Below are positions 1,017 through 22,957 of a stretch of 40,420 nucleotides of DNA, one piece after another. A program made the position numbers and the translations under genes. A model generated the notes under the pieces. It was not told the DNA's origin, did not search any database, and saw only the letters and a program-made list of their open reading frames with translations. This DNA is from a virus: the IMG/VR virus record IMGVR_UViG_3300027985_000369, positions 1 to 40,420 of that record. One strand, 5' to 3'. The stretch's first letter is position 1; each line of letters begins with the position of its first letter.

Positions 1017-1106
1017 GATGTAAAAGTTGGCTATCTCTGGTGTTATGCGGCGCGGGCGCCGTCTATCATGCGTTAGATAGCACTTCCGCTCTCCGTAAAA
1101 ATGTTC

Positions 1107-1134
1107 TTGAAATATCTTGTTTTGTGTGTATAAT
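1107..1134 (+). promoter_or_regulatory. Sigma70-like promoter inside cassette 1
   Basis: A TTGAAA -35 box (1107-1112) and a perfect TATAAT -10 box (1129-1134) are separated by 16 bases. It lies inside cassette 1, about 65 bases before the first plus-strand gene, and points against the surrounding phage operon. A cassette with its own promoter does not need an integron Pc promoter to be expressed. Confidence 0.8.
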
Positions 1135-1200
1135 ACAAGTAATGGAGTAAGCGCAATCGCGCAACTGGCACCTCGCAGGATCAGGGGTAAGGAGCAAAAA

Positions 1201-1380
1201 ATGGAACATGCGAGCGACGTTACCAAGGTCTACACCGTCACCCTCCCGAACGGAAAGCAGCAGATGTTCGAAGAAACCAAGGAAGGAGTTTTTTACGCCG
1301 CCACCTCCAACCGCGTCCAGAACTTCGCCGCAGGGCTTGAAAAAGTAAAAGCGATGGGCGGAACCGTCGAAATCAAATAA
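1201..1380 (+). CDS. Small cassette-borne protein of unknown function
   Basis: A 59-residue protein starting MEHASDVTKVYTVTL. The start at 1201 follows a strong AAGGAG ribosome-binding site at six bases spacing, downstream of the cassette promoter. It has no membrane segment or cysteine. The pattern of short beta-type stretches (VYTVTLPNG, GVFYAA, GGTVEIK) suggests a small alpha/beta fold. It is followed after 18 bases by the ribbon-helix-helix-like gene, so the two form a two-gene unit with the layout of a toxin-antitoxin or repressor-effector pair. No family was recognised. The long open frame on the opposite strand (1066-1791) competes for the same DNA but reads less like a protein. Confidence 0.7.
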   Translation: MEHASDVTKVYTVTLPNGKQQMFEETKEGVFYAATSNRVQNFAAGLEKVKAMGGTVEIK

Positions 1381-1398
1381 CTGTAAGAGGATGCGGCC

Positions 1399-1815
1399 AT
1401 GAACCATGACAATCGTGGCCGCCTTACCGTCGATCTCGGCGGTAATTGGCGGCTCTACGCAAACAACCTCCCTGTCTCTGGAAAAGCCATTGGCCTTGTC
1501 ACCAAAGACGGAATGACTGGAGCGTTGGTGCATATAGGGAGCACTGGCGTGTATGTCCGCCTCAATGCCGGAGCGATGGTTGCGCTTCCGCAGGCCAAAG
1601 TACATGCCGCAATTGATGCTGCCCGCGCCGGGTCGCACGGCGGCCCTGGTCGTGGGCAAGGTCTCAAAGCCGCCGACGGCGCAACGGGCTTGGAGCGTAA
1701 AAACGTCAGTCTCGACGCAGAAAGCATTGCAGTACTCACGGCCTTCGGTGGCGGTGAGTTGTCTCTTGGTATTCGTCGGGCTGTTGCTCATCTTAAGTCC
1801 TCCGGCGCTCTCTAA
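1399..1815 (+). CDS. Ribbon-helix-helix-like protein in cassette 1
   Basis: A 138-residue protein. The first 70 residues form a compact beta-rich region (GRLTVDLGGNWRLYANNL, TGALVHIGSTGVYVRLN). The last 40 residues resemble a ribbon-helix-helix DNA-binding unit: a short strand RKNVSLDAES, then helices around IAVLTAFGGG and LSLGIRRAVAHL. A ribosome-binding site AGAGG precedes the ATG by eight bases. The TAA stop lies inside the 1L box of attC-D (CTCTAAC), which is typical of canonical cassette genes. It could autoregulate the upstream promoter as an antitoxin or repressor would. The fold assignment is from pattern only. Confidence 0.7.
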   Translation: MNHDNRGRLTVDLGGNWRLYANNLPVSGKAIGLVTKDGMTGALVHIGSTGVYVRLNAGAMVALPQAKVHAAIDAARAGSHGGPGRGQGLKAADGATGLERKNVSLDAESIAVLTAFGGGELSLGIRRAVAHLKSSGAL

Positions 1816-1869
1816 CTATCGCTTCCAGCCGACGGCCCTGACGGGCCTCGGCTGAAGCTAGCGTTGGGC
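1810..1869 (+). repeat. attC-D integron recombination site
   Basis: A 60-base attC in plus orientation: 1L CTCTAAC (1810-1816), 5-base spacer, 2L CTTCCAGC, 21-base centre, 2R GCTGAAG, 5-base spacer, 1R GTTGGGC (1863-1869). 2L pairs with 2R perfectly except for one extra C in 2L, as in classical aadA-type attC sites. The centre folds further (CGA/TCG with another extra C, then GGCCC/GGGCC around a TGAC loop). It ends cassette 1. Confidence 0.9.
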
Positions 1870-2090
1870 GGCACAATCGGAGCGTCGCTCCACATCGCGT
1901 CATCGCTGGCATTCGAAAGCCAAAATCCATCCAAGTCATCCTCGTCCTCGTCGTGGCCAATCATGCCGAGCGTGTACATCAGCCCGTCAGCGCCGCCGTT
2001 GAATACAAAAACCGGCTGCAATGCCCACGAACCCGGAAGCTCATACCAATACCAGCCAGGCGCCACGGGTTTGTTCTTCGTCATTTTCAT
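1812..2090 (-). CDS. Cassette 2 protein, unknown function
   Basis: A 92-residue protein with an amino-terminal aromatic block PGWYWYELPGSW, a middle acidic run (HDEDEDDLDGFW) and a serine/glycine-rich tail. The start follows AAAGGAA at five bases spacing. The last 20 or so residues are encoded by attC-D itself and the stop falls in its 1L box, so the tail of the protein depends on which cassette lies next. It reads against the attC direction but with the phage early operon. The aromatic GWYWY start recalls small phage proteins that modify or display text-like short domains, but no family can be named. Confidence 0.7.
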   Translation of the reverse strand: MKMTKNKPVAPGWYWYELPGSWALQPVFVFNGGADGLMYTLGMIGHDEDEDDLDGFWLSNASDDAMWSDAPIVPPNASFSRGPSGPSAGSDS

Positions 2091-2115
2091 GTTGGTTCCT
2101 TTCCGGGCGTCATCC

Positions 2116-2183
2116 GCCCAACATTTCAGTCAACGCGGACCTTCGCGGCTACGCCGCTCGGCCCGTTACTGCCAGCGTTCGGC
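2116..2183 (+). repeat. attC-C integron recombination site
   Basis: A 68-base attC: 1L GCCCAAC (2116-2122), 5-base spacer, 2L AGTCAACG, 28-base centre with a GCGGC/GCCGC hairpin, 2R CGTTACT, 6-base spacer, 1R GTTCGGC (2177-2183). 2L equals the reverse complement of 2R plus one extra C. It ends cassette 2, whose first bases after 1863 exactly complement this 1L. Confidence 0.9.
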
Positions 2184-2184
2184 G

Positions 2185-2385
2185 TCACAGGTAGTAGGCC
2201 CGCTTGCACCGTAGCGGCTTACCAACACCGACAGCTTCGCCACGCCTGACTCGCTTCCAGAACTCGATCCCGTTGTCGTCATCCACCGAGAAGAGGATGG
2301 AGCGCGGCATGGCCTTGACTGCGGCCTTGACGGCTTCGATTGCCGCCGCTTCTTTCTCGGTGATGGTTACTTTTTTATTTGCCAT
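2185..2385 (-). CDS. Cassette 3 protein, unknown function
   Basis: A 66-residue basic protein: an amino-terminal helix rich in Lys, Glu and Ala (ITEKEAAAIEAVKAAVKAM), then SILFSVDDDNGIEFWKRVRRGEAVG. The ATG follows AAGGAA at five bases. The stop lies two bases from the attC-C 1R box. It occupies cassette 3 almost completely and reads with the phage early operon, against the attC direction. No known domain was recognised; size and charge would fit a small phage regulatory or nuclease-inhibiting protein, but that is only a possibility. Confidence 0.7.
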   Translation of the reverse strand: MANKKVTITEKEAAAIEAVKAAVKAMPRSILFSVDDDNGIEFWKRVRRGEAVGVGKPLRCKRAYYL

Positions 2386-2412
2386 TTCTTTTCCTTCTTA
2401 GTTAAAAGTGCC

Positions 2413-2498
2413 GCCGAACACAGCGGTCGATGTCGCGCCTTTCGGCGCTGGACCTTCGGCAACTGGCGTTGCCTCGGCCCATCACCTAAGCGTTAGAA
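2413..2498 (+). repeat. attC-B integron recombination site
   Basis: An 86-base attC: 1L GCCGAAC (2413-2419), 5-base spacer, 2L GGTCGATG, 47-base centre, 2R CATCACC, 5-base spacer TAAGC, 1R GTTAGAA (2492-2498). 2L is the reverse complement of 2R with one extra C at position 4. The centre holds the hairpin GGCAAC/GTTGCC with a four-base loop. Nearly identical to attC-A apart from the outer boxes and a few central bases. Confidence 0.9.
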
Positions 2499-2665
2499 GG
2501 CAAAGCCCTATCCCGCGCAAACTGGATCAGCACGCACATTGGCTCCATCGGAATGTTCTGCGGCTTCCGCTTGCCGTTGCAAATTTCGCTTATGACACGC
2601 TCAAGCTCATCGGCAAATTTCAGCGCCTCTTCATCTGTGGGCGAGTGTTCGCATCCAACTTTCAT
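2486..2665 (-). CDS. Cassette 4 protein, unknown function
   Basis: A 59-residue protein starting MKVGCEHSPTDEEALKFAD. The start at 2665 is preceded by AAAGGA at six bases; the frame stays open further upstream through attC-A but without a start signal. A central helix (DEEALKFADELERVISEIC) is followed by a basic linker and MEPMCVLIQFARDRAL. The last residues SNA and the TAG stop are encoded within attC-B. Same orientation as the phage operon and opposite to the attC direction. No family recognised. Confidence 0.65.
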   Translation of the reverse strand: MKVGCEHSPTDEEALKFADELERVISEICNGKRKPQNIPMEPMCVLIQFARDRALPSNA

Positions 2666-2697
2666 TTTTCGTCCTTTCTTTGTGTTGACCGCAGCAC

Positions 2698-2780
2698 TTC
2701 TAACACTCCGGTCGATGTCGCGCTTCGCGCTGGACCTTCGGCAACTGGCGTTGCCTCGGCCCATCACCTAAGCGTTGTGC
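2698..2780 (+). repeat. attC-A integron recombination site
   Basis: An 83-base attC: 1L TTCTAAC (2698-2704), 5-base spacer, 2L GGTCGATG, 44-base centre, 2R CATCACC, 5-base spacer TAAGC, 1R GTTGTGC (2774-2780). Same extra C in 2L as the other sites. It is the last site of the array. The 1R box continues directly into phage sequence, and the last codons of the methyltransferase gene are read from it. Confidence 0.9.
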
Positions 2781-3253
2781 CCCACTACCACGAAGCCGAG
2801 GCCGCTATGCCTGAGTGCGTCCAGGTTGTCGCTGCCGTAGGCCACCAGTGCTATCGGGGCGCCGCTGTTGAATGCCGCCCGCCGTCCGTCCACGTAGTGA
2901 AAGTGCGGGCGCCCTTTGAGGAACAGAACACCGTCTGCCGATCCCCATACCGTTTCGTAAAACATCGCCATCTCGGTGCGCGCCGGTATCAAAGCAACCC
3001 CGTTGCCGTGGTCGCGCATTTTCCGCAACCACTTCACCGACTCGCGCCCGAATGGCGGGTTGCACCACACCCGTCCAGCCCAGGGCAGCGCAAGTCCATC
3101 GTCCTGCACCGTGTAGTGCCGGGCCGCTGTTTCCCACGGCCGCACCACTGGAGCGCACGGGTCGAGGTCAAACGCTCCGAGCGCCCGCAGGATCTCCGGC
3201 GGCGTCAGCCATTCGTCGTGCCCGCCGTTCTTCTGGTGTGCGCTCAAACCCAT
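2768..3253 (-). CDS. Phage DNA N6-adenine methyltransferase (Dam-like)
   Basis: This 161-residue protein fits the phage Dam family that methylates adenine in DNA with S-adenosylmethionine. Visible features are the amino-terminal DEWLTPPEIL block, the FDLDPCA motif at 28-34 and the catalytic NPPF at 65-68 (the N/DPPY-type motif). In phages such enzymes commonly protect DNA from host restriction. A GAGGG ribosome-binding site inside the preceding gene lies seven bases before the ATG. The final residues HNA and the TAG stop fall in attC-A, so the cassette insertion may have replaced the original end of the gene. Confidence 0.88.
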   Translation of the reverse strand: MGLSAHQKNGGHDEWLTPPEILRALGAFDLDPCAPVVRPWETAARHYTVQDDGLALPWAGRVWCNPPFGRESVKWLRKMRDHGNGVALIPARTEMAMFYETVWGSADGVLFLKGRPHFHYVDGRRAAFNSGAPIALVAYGSDNLDALRHSGLGFVVVGHNA

Positions 3254-4325: not shown

Positions 4326-5086
4326 GCCTTCCCCCGGTACGATTCCCAATTGAACGGAATAACATTTCCGCCATCCTCTTTCATGCGATCAAGGACGCGC
4401 TCGCCGAGGAAGGCAAAAACTTCGTCGGTCGATAGGTTCGATAGCAGCAGACATGATTTACGCTTCTCGTACCGCTCGTTGAGAATGTCGAACATGATCA
4501 GCTTTTCTGTTTCGCTACCGAACTGAACACCAACCTCGTCGAGGATCAACAGATCGGGCTCGACCAGCGCAGCTATCGCGCCACTTTCAGTCTGTCCGCG
4601 ATTTCCGCCCCACGTATCTTTTACACGGCGGATTGCCCGCATGACGGTGCAGAACAGAACTGAATAGCCGTTCTCCATCAAAGCAAGGCCGATACCGGCG
4701 GCCAGGTGGGTCTTTCCGGTTCCGGGTTTCCCGACAAACACCGCGGATTGGCCGGTGATGTACGCATGCTTTTCGAAGCCTGCCGCAAAGCTTTTGGCAA
4801 ATTCCAGCGCGCGCTTCTTGCCTTCGCTGTCGGCGACGTAATCGGACAATTTCCGGTCACGGAAACGGTACGGAATGCCAGATTCGCCAAGCTTCTGCTC
4901 CCAGCGACGACGGCGTTCTTCTCGGTCACGCAGCGACTTTTCGGCATCCTCCTTTTCTTTCCGAATCTGTTCGCACACCGGGCAGCGCGACCAAATCGAC
5001 CCGAATACATTGCGGCTTTGGTAGTCGCCGTGATGCTCGCAAGTCGCTTCCTTGGTCTGCAAAACAAGCTTGTCGATGGCGTTCAT
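4322..5086 (-). CDS. dnaC: DnaC-like replicative helicase loader (AAA+ ATPase)
   Basis: A 254-residue AAA+ ATPase of the DnaC/IstB type, which loads the replicative helicase at the origin. An amino-terminal zinc-binding element (C16, H18, with C35 and C38 in CPVC) is followed by a basic helix, Walker A GKPGTGKT at 119-126 and Walker B LLILDEVG at 179-186, then a sensor region LLLSNLS. The ATG overlaps the replication initiator's stop (ATGA) and has a GGAGG site six bases upstream. The pairing initiator-then-loader resembles lambda O and P in arrangement. Confidence 0.92.
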   Translation of the reverse strand: MNAIDKLVLQTKEATCEHHGDYQSRNVFGSIWSRCPVCEQIRKEKEDAEKSLRDREERRRRWEQKLGESGIPYRFRDRKLSDYVADSEGKKRALEFAKSFAAGFEKHAYITGQSAVFVGKPGTGKTHLAAGIGLALMENGYSVLFCTVMRAIRRVKDTWGGNRGQTESGAIAALVEPDLLILDEVGVQFGSETEKLIMFDILNERYEKRKSCLLLSNLSTDEVFAFLGERVLDRMKEDGGNVIPFNWESYRGKA

Positions 5087-5895
5087 AGCTTTCCTCCATT
5101 GCCGTAGTCACGGTCGGCAAAATTGTCTGGCGCAGGGGTCTTGCGTGACGACGGAGCGCCTTTTGGCGGCAATGCGGCGGCTAGCCACTCAAGCGGCTGC
5201 AGCGGCTTTTCCCGGATGCACTCCCGCAGCTTGTCGATCAGCGCCTGGTCGCCGTTGGCCTTGCGAAGCCCGCCAAGGAATGATCTGGCCTGCTTCTCAG
5301 CAGTGCCGGCATTGGTCAGCAAGGGGACGCCGTAGCCGAAAATGATTTCGTTCGGGTCAGTAATCTTTGGCGGCTCGCCGCCCGAAGCTTTAGCTTCGGA
5401 ACTAACCGAAGTAGAAGAAGAAGAAGAAGGGGGGGGTTCTTTGGGGGGTTCAAAAACCCCCCTTCCTGATTCGCAAAGGGGGGTTTCTTCGGTGGTTTTA
5501 TGTTTCGACGGACGACCGCCTTTTGATCCGAAAGAAGCCCCCTTTTCCCCGTGCTCCGCGCCAAATTGTCCGCCAGATGCGCGCTTGTTCCTTACCTCTT
5601 CATCGCGGACCATGCGCCGGCTATAAATGACGCCTTCTATTGTCTGAGAAGGAACTCCAGCATCAAACAGTTCGGCAAGCAGCTTCTTGCAATCCTTCTC
5701 GCTGACGCCCGCCAGGCGGCCGATCTGCGCTGCGGTCATCGCCTTGCCATTGACGACCAGATGCCCGTATGGCTCGCACTCATGGGCAATGCACATCATC
5801 TCAACCCACAGGCCGCGAGCCGCCAGAGAACAGAACTGAAGCGCTGTGTCTTTGCGCCAATCTGACGGGTAGAATTGAAAAGACGGGCGCTTCAT
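5083..5895 (-). CDS. Phage replication initiator-like protein (DUF1376-like N-terminus)
   Basis: A 270-residue protein. The first 100 residues match the phage DUF1376-type start: FQFYPSDWRKDTALQFCSLAARGLW, then HECEPYGHL and a winged-helix-like stretch AQIGRLAGVSEKDCKKLLAELFDAG. A flexible low-complexity middle (Pro and Ser runs from G- and AGA-rich DNA at about 5415-5485) joins a carboxy domain of 90 residues. By position before the helicase loader it is the likely origin-binding protein, comparable to lambda O. The G-tracts in the linker could be slippage-prone and might overlap the origin, as lambda ori lies within O. Confidence 0.8.
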   Translation of the reverse strand: MKRPSFQFYPSDWRKDTALQFCSLAARGLWVEMMCIAHECEPYGHLVVNGKAMTAAQIGRLAGVSEKDCKKLLAELFDAGVPSQTIEGVIYSRRMVRDEEVRNKRASGGQFGAEHGEKGASFGSKGGRPSKHKTTEETPLCESGRGVFEPPKEPPPSSSSSTSVSSEAKASGGEPPKITDPNEIIFGYGVPLLTNAGTAEKQARSFLGGLRKANGDQALIDKLRECIREKPLQPLEWLAAALPPKGAPSSRKTPAPDNFADRDYGNGGKL

Positions 5896-7929: not shown

Positions 7930-8589
7930 ATGCCAAACTGGGTGACAAACAAAGTGCAGGCCCCGAGCCATGTGATCCGGGCCATGCTGAACGCCGATGG
8001 CCATGTGGACTTCGAGACCGCTGCGCCATTCCCTGGACCGTTCGGCAAGGACTGGGGCGGCTACTCCTGCGACGCCGAAGAGGCTGCGGAGATCATCTGC
8101 GGCGTACCAGCCGACAGCCACCCGCTGATTGCCGCGCTGCAGGCCAGCAACCGCGAGCGCTTCGACATCAAGAAGCTGTCCGAGGAATCTTTCGAGCAGT
8201 TCGTCGGCATGGTGCGCAACTGGCGCGCCTGCGGCTATCTTCACCCGATGGACTTCAACCGCAAGGTGTGGGGCACGGAGTGGAACGCCTGTCAGTCAAA
8301 GGCTGAGCCCGACGAAGGAAGGTGCGAGTTCGAGACCGCATGGTCTTGCCCGATGGGCGTGCTGGCTAAAATGTCGGAGCGCTTCCCCGACGACGCGATC
8401 ACCGTGACTTACGCAGACGAAGACATCGGCATCAACTGCGGCACGTTCACGCTAAAGGCCGGCGAGTTCGTGGAGCAGGACATTGCGCCGAGCTGGCGCG
8501 ACCTGGACGACGCTGGCAAGGCGAAGTGGAAGGCGTTTGCGTATCAGGTCAAAGGCTGGGAGCCAGAGACGGAAGACGATGAAGCCTGA
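7930..8589 (+). CDS. Api92-like / DUF1281 family phage protein
   Basis: A 219-residue protein with the diagnostic start MPNWVTNKV, the central block WGTEWNAC, then FETAWSCPMGVLAKMSERFPD and a YADEDIGINCGTF segment, the order seen in DUF1281/Api92-like proteins with a ferredoxin-like fold. These occur on phages and plasmids; the exact function is not established. Preceded by a modest GGAGAG site. A 39-codon gene overlaps its end. Confidence 0.85.
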   Translation: MPNWVTNKVQAPSHVIRAMLNADGHVDFETAAPFPGPFGKDWGGYSCDAEEAAEIICGVPADSHPLIAALQASNRERFDIKKLSEESFEQFVGMVRNWRACGYLHPMDFNRKVWGTEWNACQSKAEPDEGRCEFETAWSCPMGVLAKMSERFPDDAITVTYADEDIGINCGTFTLKAGEFVEQDIAPSWRDLDDAGKAKWKAFAYQVKGWEPETEDDEA

Positions 8590-8698
8590 GGCCGAACACA
8601 GAGTAGACAAAAAACTGTCCAATATTCTGTCGGAAGCCGGATTTTACGACACCCGTTCCTCCTGCCGGGTAATGCAGGAGGGCCAACACCGGAGGTGA
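8579..8698 (+). CDS. Possible 39-residue protein
   Basis: An ATG within the end of the Api92-like gene opens a 39-residue frame, MKPEAEHRVDKKLSNILSEA and on to RR, overlapping that gene by 11 bases. A helix KKLSNILSEAGFYD and reasonable codon use support it, but the only candidate ribosome-binding signal is weak. Function unknown. Confidence 0.45.
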   Translation: MKPEAEHRVDKKLSNILSEAGFYDTRSSCRVMQEGQHRR

Positions 8699-9187
8699 CT
8701 GCCTGTTACGGCGAACCGGGCGCTAGTGGTCGAGAGGCCCGCAGCCAGTCGCTTCCAGTGTTGGAACGAGAGTGCATTCGGAGTGATGCGGACGGAAACG
8801 GACGACAGAAGACGAAACGCAGCAGACGACCAACACCTAACCGCCTCCGGGTAAGAGAGGCGGAACACGAAAGGCGGTTGGCCTAAGTCGAAACGGATGG
8901 CATGGGAAACCATCGCAAATCCCCGCAGCCAGCCGCCTCACGTGTTGTCGGACACCGAAGGCCTTTTAGGTTAGGCACGAAGGCAACAGAAGCGGCCACC
9001 TCTGACCACAAGTCGGGGCGATTGATGGTAGCCTGATTCGCGCACCGGCAAGATCAATGGGGTGAATGCACAGGCTGATGTGAAAACTAGTATCTGGTGA
9101 CACTCGAAAGGCGCGTCCAGTTTAACCACTGGCAGCAAACTCGGTACGTACAGAAAGCCGGAGATCAGCGCCGGCCACCCCACCAAA
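8699..9187 (+). ncRNA. Candidate large structured RNA upstream of tRNA-Gly
   Basis: Nearly 490 bases without a plausible gene, rich in A and G on the plus strand and in local stem-loops: TTCCA/TGGAA at 8753-8766, CCGCCTC/GAGGCGG at 8841-8863 enclosed by CCAAC/GTTGG at 8830-8881, an ATGG-GAAA-CCAT GNRA hairpin at 8902-8913, ATTGAT/ATCAAT at 9021-9058 and CCAGT/ACTGG at 9117-9132. Long ornate phage RNAs of the GOLLD and ROOL classes also sit beside phage tRNAs; sequence membership in those classes cannot be judged by eye. Strand is inferred from the tRNA and gene direction. Confidence 0.5.
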
Positions 9188-9262
9188 GCGGGCATAGCTC
9201 AATGGTAGAGCCGCAGCCTTCCAAGCTGATGACGAGGGGTTCGATTCCCCCTGCTCGCTCCA
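9188..9262 (+). tRNA. tRNA-Gly(TCC)
   Basis: A complete cloverleaf: acceptor arm GCGGGCA paired with TGCTCGC (one G-T pair), D-arm TAGCTCAATGGTAGAGC, anticodon loop CTTCCAA with anticodon TCC reading GGA, T-arm GGGGTTCGATTCCCC and an encoded CCA end. It lies within the rightward gene set and is followed by a terminator. It may supply a codon that is common in the phage and less common in the host. Confidence 0.95.
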
Positions 9263-14880: not shown

Positions 14881-15372
14881 ATGAAGATGGCAAAGGCCAG
14901 TACTGCCGACATGGAAATGGCGCTGAAACTTTGCAGCGCACTGGAAGCGATGGACCGCCGGTTTTTCCCCGAAGGAGCAGAAGGCGACAGCAACCCGGAA
15001 GATTTCGACCGGGACGACGACGAACACTGCGGCATGGCGCTGCGCCATGTGCTTGGCATTCTTGAGCGCGGCTCGATTAGCCGAGTGATCTGGGGCATGT
15101 ACGTGCTACTTGACCCGGAAAACAAGGTCGTTGATCCCGACGCTGACACTCTTGAAGAACACCCGGAAACGGTAGCTGCGAACGAAGACGCTGCGCGCTA
15201 CCGCTGGCTGCGCGCCAGGTTAATGGGTGCTGACTTTGACTGGAACGACAGCGGCACATCGGTACTGGTATTTGAGCTTCCGAAAGAGGCGCGGGTATCC
15301 GCGAACTGCGACAAGACCATTGACGACGCGATGGCACTGCTGTCGAACGATGGAGATAAGCGGGATGAGTGA
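14881..15372 (+). CDS. Acidic phage protein, unknown function
   Basis: A 163-residue acidic protein. The amino half includes an acidic run NPEDFDRDDDEHCG and the segment MYVLLDPENKVVDPD; the carboxy half contains NEDAARYRWLRARL, a motif common in small phage proteins, and ends DDAMALLSND. AAGGAAAGAG precedes the ATG. Function not known. Confidence 0.75.
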   Translation: MKMAKASTADMEMALKLCSALEAMDRRFFPEGAEGDSNPEDFDRDDDEHCGMALRHVLGILERGSISRVIWGMYVLLDPENKVVDPDADTLEEHPETVAANEDAARYRWLRARLMGADFDWNDSGTSVLVFELPKEARVSANCDKTIDDAMALLSNDGDKRDE

Positions 15373-15634
15373 AGCGCAGCGAAACGAGGCTCCGCTTGAC
15401 CGGCGTGTTCGCCGGCGGATCAAGACGTGGGTGCGTCCATTGGCAAAGATGCCTACATGGCAGGCGGTTGACTGGGTGCGCGAGTGCAAGCTGCGCACCC
15501 TGCGCAGTGCCGTTGCAGCAATGGAAGCATGCTCGCAGACCAACTGCTGGTGGGGCGACTACAACACCGCGCAGGCGTTGCTGCCGATCGCCCGCGAACG
15601 GCTGCCGGCGAACGCAGAGGCAAAGGGCGACTGA
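15365..15634 (+). CDS. Basic phage protein, unknown function
   Basis: An 89-residue basic protein, MSEAQRNEAPLDRRVRRRIK with a Trp-rich middle (KTWVRPLAKMPTWQAVDWV) and NCWWGDYNTAQALLPIAR. The start at 15365 overlaps the preceding gene by eight bases and follows GGAG. Upstream in-frame codons belong to the other frame. Function unknown. Confidence 0.7.
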   Translation: MSEAQRNEAPLDRRVRRRIKTWVRPLAKMPTWQAVDWVRECKLRTLRSAVAAMEACSQTNCWWGDYNTAQALLPIARERLPANAEAKGD

Positions 15635-15706
15635 CGGCGCAGCCGGCAGGCGTCCGCTTTCGCCGCCGGGTTCGGCGTCAGATTGAACGGGAAAAGGAAA
15701 GCCACG

Positions 15707-15964
15707 ATGAAACCAACAACGAGCATGTTTGCGACGGCTGAAGATTACAAGAAGGCGGTCGTCGAGCACCGCCTGAGGGAGCTGCAATCGCTTGGTGCCG
15801 GAGATGCCGACTGCGCCGAGTGCCTGGGCATGAATGTGCCGTCGATTGAGATTTGCAAGAAATGCATTGCTGACACGCCGGCATTCACCGAGTTGGTATG
15901 GCGCCTGATGCAACGCGCTGACCAGACGCCGAACGCCGCCTTAACCGAGCGCGGCGACCAGTGA
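15707..15964 (+). CDS. Small protein with two Cys pairs
   Basis: An 85-residue protein, MKPTTSMFATAEDYKKAVVE at the start, then CAECLGMNVPSIEICKKC, whose two C-x2-C pairs suggest a zinc-binding element. AAGGAAAG lies before the ATG. Function unknown. Confidence 0.7.
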   Translation: MKPTTSMFATAEDYKKAVVEHRLRELQSLGAGDADCAECLGMNVPSIEICKKCIADTPAFTELVWRLMQRADQTPNAALTERGDQ

Positions 15965-16039
15965 TTGATGAAACAACGGGCGTTTCACCGCGTCCGGTTG
16001 AATGGCACAGTTGGGCGTGACGCCCAGAAAGGAAAGATC

Positions 16040-16345
16040 ATGAATGTGCAAGACCAAGTGATGGCCGAATTAAGCCGAGCAACCGCCAAGTTTCCGACAT
16101 GGCCAACCGACCCGCTGCACGCACTGGCGGTGCTAGGTGAGGAGTTTGGCGAATTGACCAAGGCGATGCTGCAACACACCTACGAGCCGCATAAGGGCGT
16201 GACGCAGCAGGACATTCGAGACGAGGCTATCCAGACCGCCGCGATGGCGCTGCGCCTGGCAATGAGCCTTCCGTGCTACCAGTACCGGCAGGGGCCGCAG
16301 CACAGCCAAGGGAAAGACAACCTTCCAGATGACTACGAGGTTTGA
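16040..16345 (+). CDS. MazG-like nucleotide pyrophosphohydrolase
   Basis: A 101-residue all-helical protein fitting the MazG/PRA-PH superfamily, which hydrolyses nucleoside triphosphates to monophosphates. Visible motifs are EEFGELTKAM in the first core helix and DIRDEAIQTAAMALRL in the second, which would coordinate magnesium. Phage MazG proteins are thought to change nucleotide or ppGpp pools. The start at 16040 follows AAAGGAAAG; the frame is open further upstream without a start signal. Confidence 0.75.
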   Translation: MNVQDQVMAELSRATAKFPTWPTDPLHALAVLGEEFGELTKAMLQHTYEPHKGVTQQDIRDEAIQTAAMALRLAMSLPCYQYRQGPQHSQGKDNLPDDYEV

Positions 16346-16476
16346 CGCCCAACTCTAATTAAACGACACCATGTCGCATAACGTGTGAGCAATCGCCGTG
16401 ATCGGCCTTATTGCGAACGGTGCGCTTGACCTTATGGATCTGCGTCATTTCAGGAAAAGAGTGAGGTAAAAATAAC

Positions 16477-16740
16477 ATGAGCAACTACTACGCAGACGCA
16501 ATCAAAGTATTGGCCGACGACAAGACTGATTTTCGGGCATTGGCGTATGAAATTGCCAAGGCAAACCCGAAGGCGCTCGCATCGGCGGCGCGGCGCTTGG
16601 AATCTGGTTTCGGTTGGCAGCGTGAATGCCTGACGCTGATGCAAAGCGGATTGAAAATCGAGGCCATTAAGGCGTGCAGAGCGGCAACGAACATGAGCCT
16701 TGCTGATGCGAAGGCTGCGGTAGAAGCGCTGGCGCAATGA
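16477..16740 (+). CDS. Phage protein with L7/L12 C-terminal-like domain
   Basis: An 87-residue protein. Its carboxy half, LKIEAIKACRAATNMSLADA followed by KAAVEAL, strongly resembles the carboxy-terminal domain of ribosomal protein L7/L12 (IKxVRxxTGLGLKEAKxxVE). Small phage proteins with this module are known, function unclear. A GAGG site lies a little far from the ATG. Confidence 0.75.
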   Translation: MSNYYADAIKVLADDKTDFRALAYEIAKANPKALASAARRLESGFGWQRECLTLMQSGLKIEAIKACRAATNMSLADAKAAVEALAQ

Positions 16741-20074: not shown

Positions 20075-20267
20075 CTAAGCCGGCGCATTGTCGTCATCCT
20101 CAAAAATACTCTCGTCGTAATTCGCCGCCTGAACCTTGGCCTTGTACAACCCGTCCGGTGCCACCGACGCCACCACGGCGCGGTGGGAAAGGCCCAGGTA
20201 CTTGCCGAAGTAGGCGTGCGGCGGCTCCTGCCGGCGCCGAGGCATAGACGGTGGCGAGAACGGTCAT
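20075..20267 (-). pseudogene. Probable frameshifted small gene resembling the J-protein end
   Basis: An ATG at 20267, coupled to the fibre stop as ATGA, opens MTVLATVYASAPAG, but that frame soon becomes Arg/Gly-rich and ends at 20100. Another frame (ATG 20245, stop 20075) gives natural sequence YFGKYLGLSHRAVVASVAPD and ends YDESIFEDDDNAPA. That ending resembles the end of the host-specificity protein (KYDSRMYDDDDNSPS). Joining the two frames by one base change in the GC-rich 20205-20240 region would give one gene of about 60 residues. A working 56-residue gene from 20245 is the alternative. Confidence 0.55.
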
Positions 20268-22957
20268 GGCAGGTTTTCGTAGCCGACCGGCAAGTAAAAA
20301 GCTACGCACCAGTTGTGCAACGGGTACGGCTTATCAACTAGCGAGGCGATATTTTCGCCAGCGCTCATTCCGTCTTCCGGTCGATAAATGTAGTTGTCAA
20401 GAGCGACCGTTGAATCACTGTCGCGCAAGCATCCGTTACCGTTGTGCACAGTTTTATCTGCGTACCAGACATAAGCAGATCCTGTTGTATCTCGGCTAAG
20501 CGAAATCCTGACGATTGTATCAGCAACTATTGACACAGAGCTAATCGCTACAGTTCCAGCGTCATCTGTGACATTGAATCCTTTATTAGGATAATCGGTC
20601 GCTGTCTGAATTACATACGGCATACCAAACACAAGCGGTGGCTCTGGTACGTGAAAATCAACGTCGATAGTGCGCCCGCTTTGTGTAATTAAAATCGGGC
20701 GAAGCGGCTGCCATTCTTTACCTTGGCGCACAACCCGATGAAATATTTTTGCGATCTGGTTCGCGAACCATCGAGATCCATTGGACGTTAGGTGACCCCC
20801 TTTGTCCGTGTACGGATACACAGGCCCGACCATCCAGACGTTTTCTTTTTCAAGCGTGACTTCGAGCTGCGCCATTCCGACGTGAAGACCTGGATCGCCA
20901 GCGCTATCAACATCGCGAGTGTACGCGGCTCCCGTCTGGTATGTGAAGAATGCAGGCGGTATAGCCTGACCCGTGATGGCCATCACGTCATCAACCATGT
21001 CGGTGATGAGCTGGTTGAATAGTGTCTTGTATGTCGACTTGTTCCACGAACCACCGTTGTCAAAATAGTTATATTCGCCCTGCATCCACATGATGCCATC
21101 AACGACGTGCGTGTCTGATCCCGTCGCTGTTTCGATTTTCGACAACCCGTCAGTAAATCTGCTGTACCGATTAACGCCATCCTGAGTGTTAACTTTCGAC
21201 AGCTGCTCGATGGTCTTGCCAGACACGGACGGGTTGAAGGTGACGAACAGTCGCGAGGCGTCGTTCTCGGCCAGCGCCTCCTGGTTGTGGAGATACTTCG
21301 CAAAATTTACCCAGCCGTGGTTCACAGGCTCGCCGAAGGCTCCTGCAGGCTCGTATCCATAGTCATAAACCGTTGCGCCATCAACTGCTTGAGCAATCAA
21401 CGGGTAGAGAGACGCAGAAGTAAAAGGCGAATATGTCTCGCCGTCGCCTGTCGTGGGCAGGACATTTGATCCGAGAGACAGATTTCCGAACCTATTAATC
21501 CTCGACAAAGATGGCGAAGTCTCTTGTCCTCGCGCCAGCGATTGGCCATATACGACTTTGGTATTATATTTCGCAGTAGGACGCTGAACGCTCGTAACAA
21601 TTTTTTGTTTAAAAGCATTAGAAAATGCAATATTAAAAGCATTTCTCGAATCAATGCTTTCAATACTTTCTGAGTCCGCCGAAGGATAGTCACTTAGATA
21701 TATGCCTTCTACTAGATTTTCAGAGCAGCTAAATTGAACGCCTGTTATTTTTACCTTCGCAGACAAAGCCTGCGTTTCTGATCCAACATAAAAATAAGAA
21801 ATATTTTCATCAGACGGTAGCGGGTCAATCAATACGCTGTATCTCGCCGCGAACGGAGATAGTTTCTTTTCTAGAACTGCGTTATAAAAATAAAATGATC
21901 CAGTCGCAGTCCATAAATAAACTCGTGGAGACCCGAATATATCTGCAGTATCTGATTCAATATAAAACCTGAAAAATCCAACGCCTTTTGGAAAGAAAGT
22001 CTCGAAGTTGTCCCCGAAGTACGGCCGATTACTTGCCGTTAAATCAGAAGCTCCGCGCAAAAAACCGAGTGAAATTAACTCTGCGCTTGTGATATCTACA
22101 ATGCTTGTATAACCGAAACGCCGTGGCATTTTATCGGCTAGCTTGCCGAATTTACATTGATTTACGCCAAACAATTGACGAGGGTCTTTGAAATTAAAAG
22201 CACTTCGAATTGATCTATTGTCCCAGAACTCAGCAATAATAAAAACCTTGTCTGGCGTTGATGCTTTTATATCTACAGAACCGCTGCTTATAATGTTCCA
22301 CTCGTATTGCTGAGTTAAATCGTTATATAACAATGCGGAAACCGAAGTTAAAGGAGTTGGCCTAACAAGTTTCACATAGCCGGGAAGCTCGCTTGACTCC
22401 GTCATTAAATTGCTGCGATTTATTACAGAAGTTCCGCGCTGAATATAAATATTCCTCGAAACGTAAACAGCATTACCGCCGCCGAGATAACCAGACGGAT
22501 CATAAATAAGGCGGCGATTGAAACTTATTACGGTTGGCCATCCAATTTTCGCCGACGCTGCAGACGGCAAAGCAGGTCCGACCGGTGTGGCGACTGGGCC
22601 AGCGTCGTGCCTGTATCGCTGCACACTCAATCCGTCTGCTGAAGGAACCTGAAATTGCTCGCCTTCAGCCGTCCCTGCAAGACCGAGCGCAGTTGTCGAA
22701 TACAGGTCTGCATTGACATAAGCGGCGTCGCGTGCGGCTTCGGCCTGAGCCTGAGCAGCTTGAGCAGCAAGCGATGCTTCCACCGCCGGCACGCCGGTAG
22801 CGAGAGATTCAAGCCCGGCCATCGTATATACCTGGTCTCCGACACGGTTAGTTGCCGTTTCACCGGCTCCGTTCATGACCTGATCGAATGTTTCTGCGTT
22901 GTCTGCAAAGTCTCTCGGGTCTGTACTTCCAACAGGGTTTCCGGTGTCGTATGGCAT
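20264..22957 (-). CDS. Tail fibre/tailspike with SGNH-type esterase domain
   Basis: An 897-residue protein. The start (MPYDTGNPVGSTDPRDFADN, then an Ala-rich helix to about 80) is a typical virion-attachment region. Residues 460-740 carry SGNH-hydrolase-like blocks: GQS at 471-473 (probable nucleophile S473), WMQGE at 624-628 and DKGGH at 718-722 (D718/H722). This is the pattern of sialate/acetylxylan-type O-acetyl esterases. A carboxy beta-rich domain follows. It probably binds and deacetylates surface polysaccharide. The centre (about 21570-22540) is much richer in A and T than neighbouring genes, suggesting transfer. Confidence 0.82.
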   Translation of the reverse strand: MPYDTGNPVGSTDPRDFADNAETFDQVMNGAGETATNRVGDQVYTMAGLESLATGVPAVEASLAAQAAQAQAEAARDAAYVNADLYSTTALGLAGTAEGEQFQVPSADGLSVQRYRHDAGPVATPVGPALPSAASAKIGWPTVISFNRRLIYDPSGYLGGGNAVYVSRNIYIQRGTSVINRSNLMTESSELPGYVKLVRPTPLTSVSALLYNDLTQQYEWNIISSGSVDIKASTPDKVFIIAEFWDNRSIRSAFNFKDPRQLFGVNQCKFGKLADKMPRRFGYTSIVDITSAELISLGFLRGASDLTASNRPYFGDNFETFFPKGVGFFRFYIESDTADIFGSPRVYLWTATGSFYFYNAVLEKKLSPFAARYSVLIDPLPSDENISYFYVGSETQALSAKVKITGVQFSCSENLVEGIYLSDYPSADSESIESIDSRNAFNIAFSNAFKQKIVTSVQRPTAKYNTKVVYGQSLARGQETSPSLSRINRFGNLSLGSNVLPTTGDGETYSPFTSASLYPLIAQAVDGATVYDYGYEPAGAFGEPVNHGWVNFAKYLHNQEALAENDASRLFVTFNPSVSGKTIEQLSKVNTQDGVNRYSRFTDGLSKIETATGSDTHVVDGIMWMQGEYNYFDNGGSWNKSTYKTLFNQLITDMVDDVMAITGQAIPPAFFTYQTGAAYTRDVDSAGDPGLHVGMAQLEVTLEKENVWMVGPVYPYTDKGGHLTSNGSRWFANQIAKIFHRVVRQGKEWQPLRPILITQSGRTIDVDFHVPEPPLVFGMPYVIQTATDYPNKGFNVTDDAGTVAISSVSIVADTIVRISLSRDTTGSAYVWYADKTVHNGNGCLRDSDSTVALDNYIYRPEDGMSAGENIASLVDKPYPLHNWCVAFYLPVGYENLP

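Follow-up and report, generated by a model that had tools for sequence, protein, structure and literature searches.

Clusters of integron attC sites without an integrase gene (CALINs) have already been described from phages, namely TJE1, H101/PH101 and P12002L (Qi et al. 2023, PMC9892861), which answers a question that the sequence-only reading of the DNA studied here had left aside. Five of the six virulent-phage attC sites tested recombined with IntI1 and attI1 (PMC9892861). The PH101 cassettes are given as facing the same direction (PMC9892861); the IntI1-tested CALIN of this phage (Pseudoalteromonas phage H101, record L375, 26529-27384) apparently holds an inverted gene between two sites, and the genes of TJE1 are canonical in our geometry scan. 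A phage-specific intI clade, a phage-specific attI and a systematic inverted orientation are not described for these phage CALINs (PMC9892861). Complete integrons are known from temperate phages, i.e. Vibrio p16/p42, a P1 isolate and Shewanella M16-3; the Vibrio cases were regarded as fragments of host chromosomal integrons, while class 1 integrons were recognised in the P1 isolate (PMC9892861). These resemble the phages discussed below in carrying intI in the phage genome, but the lineage considered here spans unrelated phages and has its own IntI clade. Similarly, the sedentary chromosomal integrons of Burkholderiales share with it the attC family, the IntI family and the order intI-attI-attC, but their genes are canonical with respect to attC (42:5, see below) whereas the phage genes are inverted, and the phage attI and IntI clade are separate.

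The window, i.e. the whole stretch of DNA analysed, is the complete viral record IMGVR_UViG_3300027985_000369, a linear contig of 40,420 bp that may be incomplete. It belongs to a tailed phage, with a large terminase identified by protein similarity and lambda-like early genes (NinB, NinG, a DnaC loader and a RecE-like exonuclease), and DNA searches gave no similarity to plasmids or known phages. Elsewhere the window contains a tRNA-Gly gene (TCC anticodon, 9188-9262, plus strand) and, at 20264-22957, a gene for an 897-aa protein of the tail region that weakly matches SASA-type carbohydrate esterases. Two cassette arrays are present (Table 1). Pfam yielded no function for the cassette genes tested, and any benefit of these genes to the phage is presumed.

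Table 1. Features of the two cassette arrays in the window (scores from the attC covariance model)
Feature	Position	Strand	Remarks
Array 1, left crossover edge	1072..1073	+	G|TTAGATAG, read from sequence
Cassette 1	1073..1863	+	genes 1201-1380 and 1399-1815 on plus (canonical); attC1
attC1	1809..1869	+	35.1 bits; geometry scanner 1810-1869
Cassette 2	1864..2177	+	gene on minus, start 2090, passes through attC1, stop 1812
attC2	2115..2183	+	45.8 bits; geometry scanner 2116-2183
Cassette 3	2178..2492	+	gene 2185-2385 on minus (inverted)
attC3	2412..2498	+	20.3 bits; geometry scanner 2413-2498
Cassette 4	2493..2774	+	gene on minus, about 2665 to 2486 (inverted), stop within attC3
attC4	2697..2780	+	13.2 bits; geometry scanner 2698-2780
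Dam-type DNA methyltransferase (MTase)	2768..3253	-	stop inside attC4
Far-edge gene of array 2	14881..15372	+	role like that of the MTase in array 1
attC7	15342..15414	-	28.8 bits
Array 2, cassette 3	15348..15612	-	gene 15365-15634 on plus, inverted
attC6	15607..15677	-	29.1 bits
Array 2, cassette 2	15613..15933	-	gene 15707-15964 on plus, inverted
attC5	15928..16017	-	23.2 bits
Array 2, cassette 1	15934..16352	-	gene 16040-16345 on plus, PHROG 2831, inverted
attI remnant, phage type	16347..16387	+	GCCCAACTCTAATTAAACGACACCATGTCGCATAAC; attI profile; edge GTTGGGC on minus strand

Array 1 had been recognised from the letters alone as four sites of attC geometry, and a geometry scanner recovered all four on the plus strand, where that reading had placed them (scores 9.5-12). 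Each has the structure AAC-N5-3 bp-extra C-5 bp ... 5 bp-3 bp-N5/6-GTT; the same geometry is found by the scanner in class-1 plasmid attCs, which score alike, and in the three published TJE1 sites. Two further details of the sequence-only reading were confirmed: 2L pairs with 2R and leaves an extrahelical base, the extra C, on one arm, and the starting heptamers of cassettes 2, 3 and 4 are exactly complementary to the 1L of their own attC (6/7 in cassette 1). AAC and GTT cores occur in 7/7 attCs of the window, some cores being one base off RYYY/RRRY (e.g. GTTCGGC). Strict sites number six in the window against a mean of 1.2 in 40 dinucleotide shuffles of it, and heptamer-chained neighbours number four against none in all 40 shuffles.

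A covariance model built from 28 bacterial and plasmid attCs, phage sequence excluded, was then run over both strands of the whole record. Its seven top matches are the four sites of array 1, as the check proposed in the sequence-only reading would have it, and the three of array 2; at none of these seven does the opposite strand score above 7.5 bits. The weakest site by this model alone is attC4 (E=0.28, with a long centre), whose right half is identical to attC3 over 50 nt, and its identity rests on the heptamer chain together with this near identity. A reversed assignment, with the attC top strand of array 1 on minus, where gene stops overlap the sites, was rejected: the top strand is plus by the class-1 plasmid attCs, by TJE1 and by the strand-specific model alike. 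By sequence and model, the seven sites are integron attC sites. With four and three attC sites and no intI nearby, both arrays are CALINs by definition (two or more attC, no intI nearby), and the view of array 1 as integron attC sites with circle-type cassette ends, lacking intI and set within a phage operon, is upheld. An IntI match was found nowhere in the record (a linear contig that may be incomplete), so that neither array is accompanied by an integrase and the intI gene of a complete integron is absent.

The left edge of array 1 gave no match to the covariance model, hence no attC, and none to the attI profile; it is a secondary G|TT site or else an attI that has diverged strongly. Cassette 1 carries its own sigma70-like promoter (TTGAAA..TATAAT, about 1107-1135), and the promoter-gene module recurs in the records L248/L249 beside a 52.6-bit attC. 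This two-gene module (window 1098-1815) combines a strong conserved TATAAT promoter with a short C-terminal domain (KNVSLD..LSLGIRRA), and recurs in L250-L253 as well as in L248/L249, i.e. in phages with and without attC nearby.

Array 2 (15342-16353), with attC on the minus strand, was overlooked by the sequence-only reading, as was its attI edge. Its heptamers are chained exactly, as in array 1. The stop of the gene at 14881-15372, for which no homologue was found in the phage collection, and the start codon of the gene at 15365-15634 both lie within attC7, and other phage attCs hold an RBS and ATG within their central loop (read in the sequences), so the attCs are built into the operon. Next to the first cassette of array 2, a profile of 13 phage attI sites built without the window matches 16347-16387 with E=2.5e-4 (next match 0.57), while the same search finds no attI next to the first cassette of array 1. 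The matched site has an internal deletion relative to intact phage attIs and no intI behind it, and tblastn for IntI relics downstream gave none (E 0.3 or worse). About 90 bp past the attI, close to the position of intI in other phages, lies a gene (16477-16740) for a small protein with a stretch resembling the ribosomal L7/L12 C-terminus, just below the Pfam cut-off.

This attI is of a type otherwise known from phage integrons. Contig C13 of a Sulfuricella MAG (G054), a host-chromosome contig, has a prophage-like end in which a phage integrase is followed by IntI and then by six or more inverted cassettes, the MTase among them, and the phage record G031 has its array and IntI in the same order. 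The motif GCATAACTTAAATT(C/T)AACGACACC stands directly before intI in both, and its counterpart at the edge of array 2 is GCCCAACTCTAATTAAACGACACC. Among viral contigs the motif occurs in 16, of which 14 are apparently real (the matches in L402 and L404, with neither attC nor intI, were set aside as spurious), and among 399 Burkholderiales genomes in one, which is the C13 prophage. In most of the 14 records the start of a phage-type intI lies 59-66 bp beyond the motif, and the edge of the attI is complementary to the first 1L; G002 has an attI match without IntI, an apparent loss of intI. The phage attI profile matched none of 80 bacterial IntI loci, in agreement with a regular-expression search upstream of bacterial intI, which found nothing.

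The integrases of these phages, at 55-57% identity to IntI1, likewise stand apart. In one tree, 11 phage IntIs group together (UFBoot 100, SH-aLRT 98) as a clade separate from about 60 bacterial IntIs, and in a larger tree 65 of 76 viral rows fall into a group without any bacterial row (SH-aLRT 98; a quick tree with midpoint root), the viral rows having been chosen for their similarity to phage IntIs and the bacterial ones for similarity to a small seed alignment led by IntI1. Compared with the 399 Burkholderiales genomes, the G031 IntI matches the prophage copy best (67%), other full-length matches reach at most 66%, and phage copies reach 81%. The intI-bearing records have TerL, portal or tail genes from different phage types. 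Chained attCs are present in at least 32 of the 58 viral contigs that have an IntI relative and sufficient space on the side of the array, and such arrays are therefore not peculiar to one genome; most array records are without IntI, many of them being fragments. The Sulfuricella denitrificans MAG (G054) contains three IntI genes, on C13 (the prophage end), C33 and C23. Virus Rctr41k (L085, KX853513), a phage from a DAMO enrichment, has a divergent IntI-like integrase (4680-5678, 45% to IntI1) outside the main phage clade and two attC-like sites (about 8415-8815) about 3 kb from it.

The arrays of the window share a second feature with this lineage. With the attC top strand set by the covariance model (plus for array 1 and minus for array 2), every gene of array 2 runs opposite to attC, as do the MTase and the genes of cassettes 2-4. 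The window counts five inverted sites and one canonical. Among heptamer-chained sites, the bacterial IntI loci show 42 canonical and 5 inverted (5/47 scored sites), bacterial genomes found through an attC pattern 17 and 2, and plasmids 6 and 0. By contrast, viral contigs found through that pattern and a second one show 13 canonical and 110 inverted sites, or 1 and 33 by record, a difference from the pattern-found bacteria that is significant by site (Fisher p=4e-12) and by record (3.6e-7); an IntI-centred viral sample gave 11 and 96 sites (1 and 30 records, with two ties). Counts by record are the safer ones, because the calls use ORFs with RBS-like starts, roughly 25 to 33% of the sites are ambiguous, and sites inside one array are not independent. 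Two isolate genomes, L331 and L303, were treated separately in the count on account of their canonical arrays and, for L331, of a bacterial-type IntI in the record. The window thus has the phage-type attI and the inverted genes of the phage lineage, and no phage-clade IntI in its record.

Evidence for exchange comes from the MTase. At 93-80% protein identity it is followed by attC sites in three phages (G001, G002, G007) and accompanied by single attC sites in two others (G006, G008). G001 and G002 have only the MTase cassette in common, DNA similarity extending from G|TTGTGCC to inside the next attC; homology to the complete MTase cassette of the Sulfuricella prophage (G054 C13), which lies beside a phage-type intI, begins at the same G|TTGTGCC, and this prophage holds the only close copy in the 399 Burkholderiales genomes. 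Unlike these complete cassettes, the MTase of the window has no attC at its 5' side. The array-bearing records checked have terminase, portal or tail genes of differing types, and homology between otherwise unrelated array phages ends at attC in 70 of 256 cases against 26.9 expected. Whole-cassette turnover is visible in the pair L401 and L408. A stretch of 3.6 kb that includes attI and intI is 99.9% identical between the two, and past the array the identity is 98%. When divided at G|TT, their arrays comprise five common cassettes (99.5-100%, in the same order), one further pair that is 77% alike, and cassettes without counterpart, four in L401 and two in L408; by sequence comparison this is recent gain and loss of whole cassettes within a phage lineage. 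The sequence-only reading would have been contradicted by sites that the attC model misses or by related phages without turnover: the model matches its sites, and turnover is present in related integrons. For this phage itself, no close relative came to light in which the site is either filled or empty, and its terminase relatives (up to 79% identical) have no chained arrays in the available sequence up to about 10 kb away.

Our verdict is that the array is genuine, was built by an IntI and has since lost the integrase; the building enzyme we infer. Very probably both arrays, with their seven attCs, were built by a phage-specific integron integrase within a phage operon as outlined below, although cassette 1 is canonical and array 1 has no recognisable attI. 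The suggestion that the phage acquired its cassettes inside an integron-bearing host holds as far as integron cassettes are concerned, while the evidence favours a phage-specific lineage as their source, because the attI of array 2 otherwise adjoins phage intI genes, because the inversion of the genes matches other phage arrays and departs from bacterial integrons, and because the MTase cassette recurs in unrelated phages.

As a special case of this reading, the arrays may have two origins, array 2 being a decayed phage-type integron and array 1 a later product, formed when IntI recombined at a secondary G|TT where the MTase gene ends. We hold this to be conceivable, with some reserve: attI is confined to array 2 and the left edge of array 1 is by the models neither attC nor attI, but that edge may be an eroded attI, and four other phages (G013, G023, G026, G027) likewise have two arrays on opposite attC strands in divergent operons, so the pairing may be old. 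One of them, G027 (L370-L372), is a 58-kb record whose 22 attC sites form several clusters that alternate in strand. It is unlikely that the arrays are an ordinary host-derived CALIN, in which cassettes of a bacterial chromosomal integron entered the phage by recombination of attC with a secondary site or by illegitimate recombination, an origin put forward in the sequence-only reading and, in general terms, by Qi et al. 2023. The attCs are of bacterial (betaproteobacterial) type by the covariance model, array 1 starts at G|TT without an attI, and its joined flanks restore the MTase end GHNA*, but this origin does not agree with the phage-type attI of array 2, with genes inverted as in phage integrons, or with a close MTase cassette copy found, among 399 bacterial genomes, solely in a prophage. 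Finally, it is extremely improbable, and already contradicted, that the repeats only look like attC and serve the operon as hairpins for termination or mRNA processing: the sites do lie at gene ends, where hairpins are common, but have chained complementary heptamers, the extra base on the same arm every time, strand-specific model matches, whole-cassette indels in relatives and an adjacent intI in phages.

The phage-specific integron would work as follows. In its intact order, a phage operon promoter would be followed by cassette genes running opposite to attC, then by attI and, downstream on the same strand, by intI. The promoter would transcribe the cassettes and then intI, while IntI would recombine attI with attC in its folded, single-stranded form, and cassettes would thereby enter beside attI and intI, presumably at the promoter-far end. 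In bacterial integrons, the promoter is placed in attI. Since a promoter in attI would here read away from intI, the genes would have to be inverted relative to attC for the phage operon to read them in sense. Phages could in this way exchange accessory genes, e.g. a DNA methyltransferase, cassette by cassette. In the window, array 2 would have retained its attI and lost intI, array 1 has neither, and further shuffling would depend on IntI supplied in trans by another phage infecting the same cell, by a prophage or by the host.

We consider it likely that phages possess an integron lineage of their own, with a distinct integrase clade and attI and with inverted genes expressed by the phage operon instead of an integron promoter, and that it is widespread and maintains a gene pool exchanged cassette-wise among unrelated phages, which may be a source of bacterial cassettes. 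Phage CALINs as such are already published, and what appears new is this lineage: the literature searched, which left most subscription papers and preprints outside, describes neither an integrase clade of phages that has an attI of its own nor inverted cassettes in phages, and priority is accordingly not certain. The reversed orientation together with an integrase on the same strand allows a direct test of whether expression explains how cassettes are oriented, and bears on where integron cassettes originate and why bacterial ones nearly always face one way. Phages would shuffle accessory genes by site-specific recombination, beyond random mosaicism, and would be both a route and a reservoir for cassettes.
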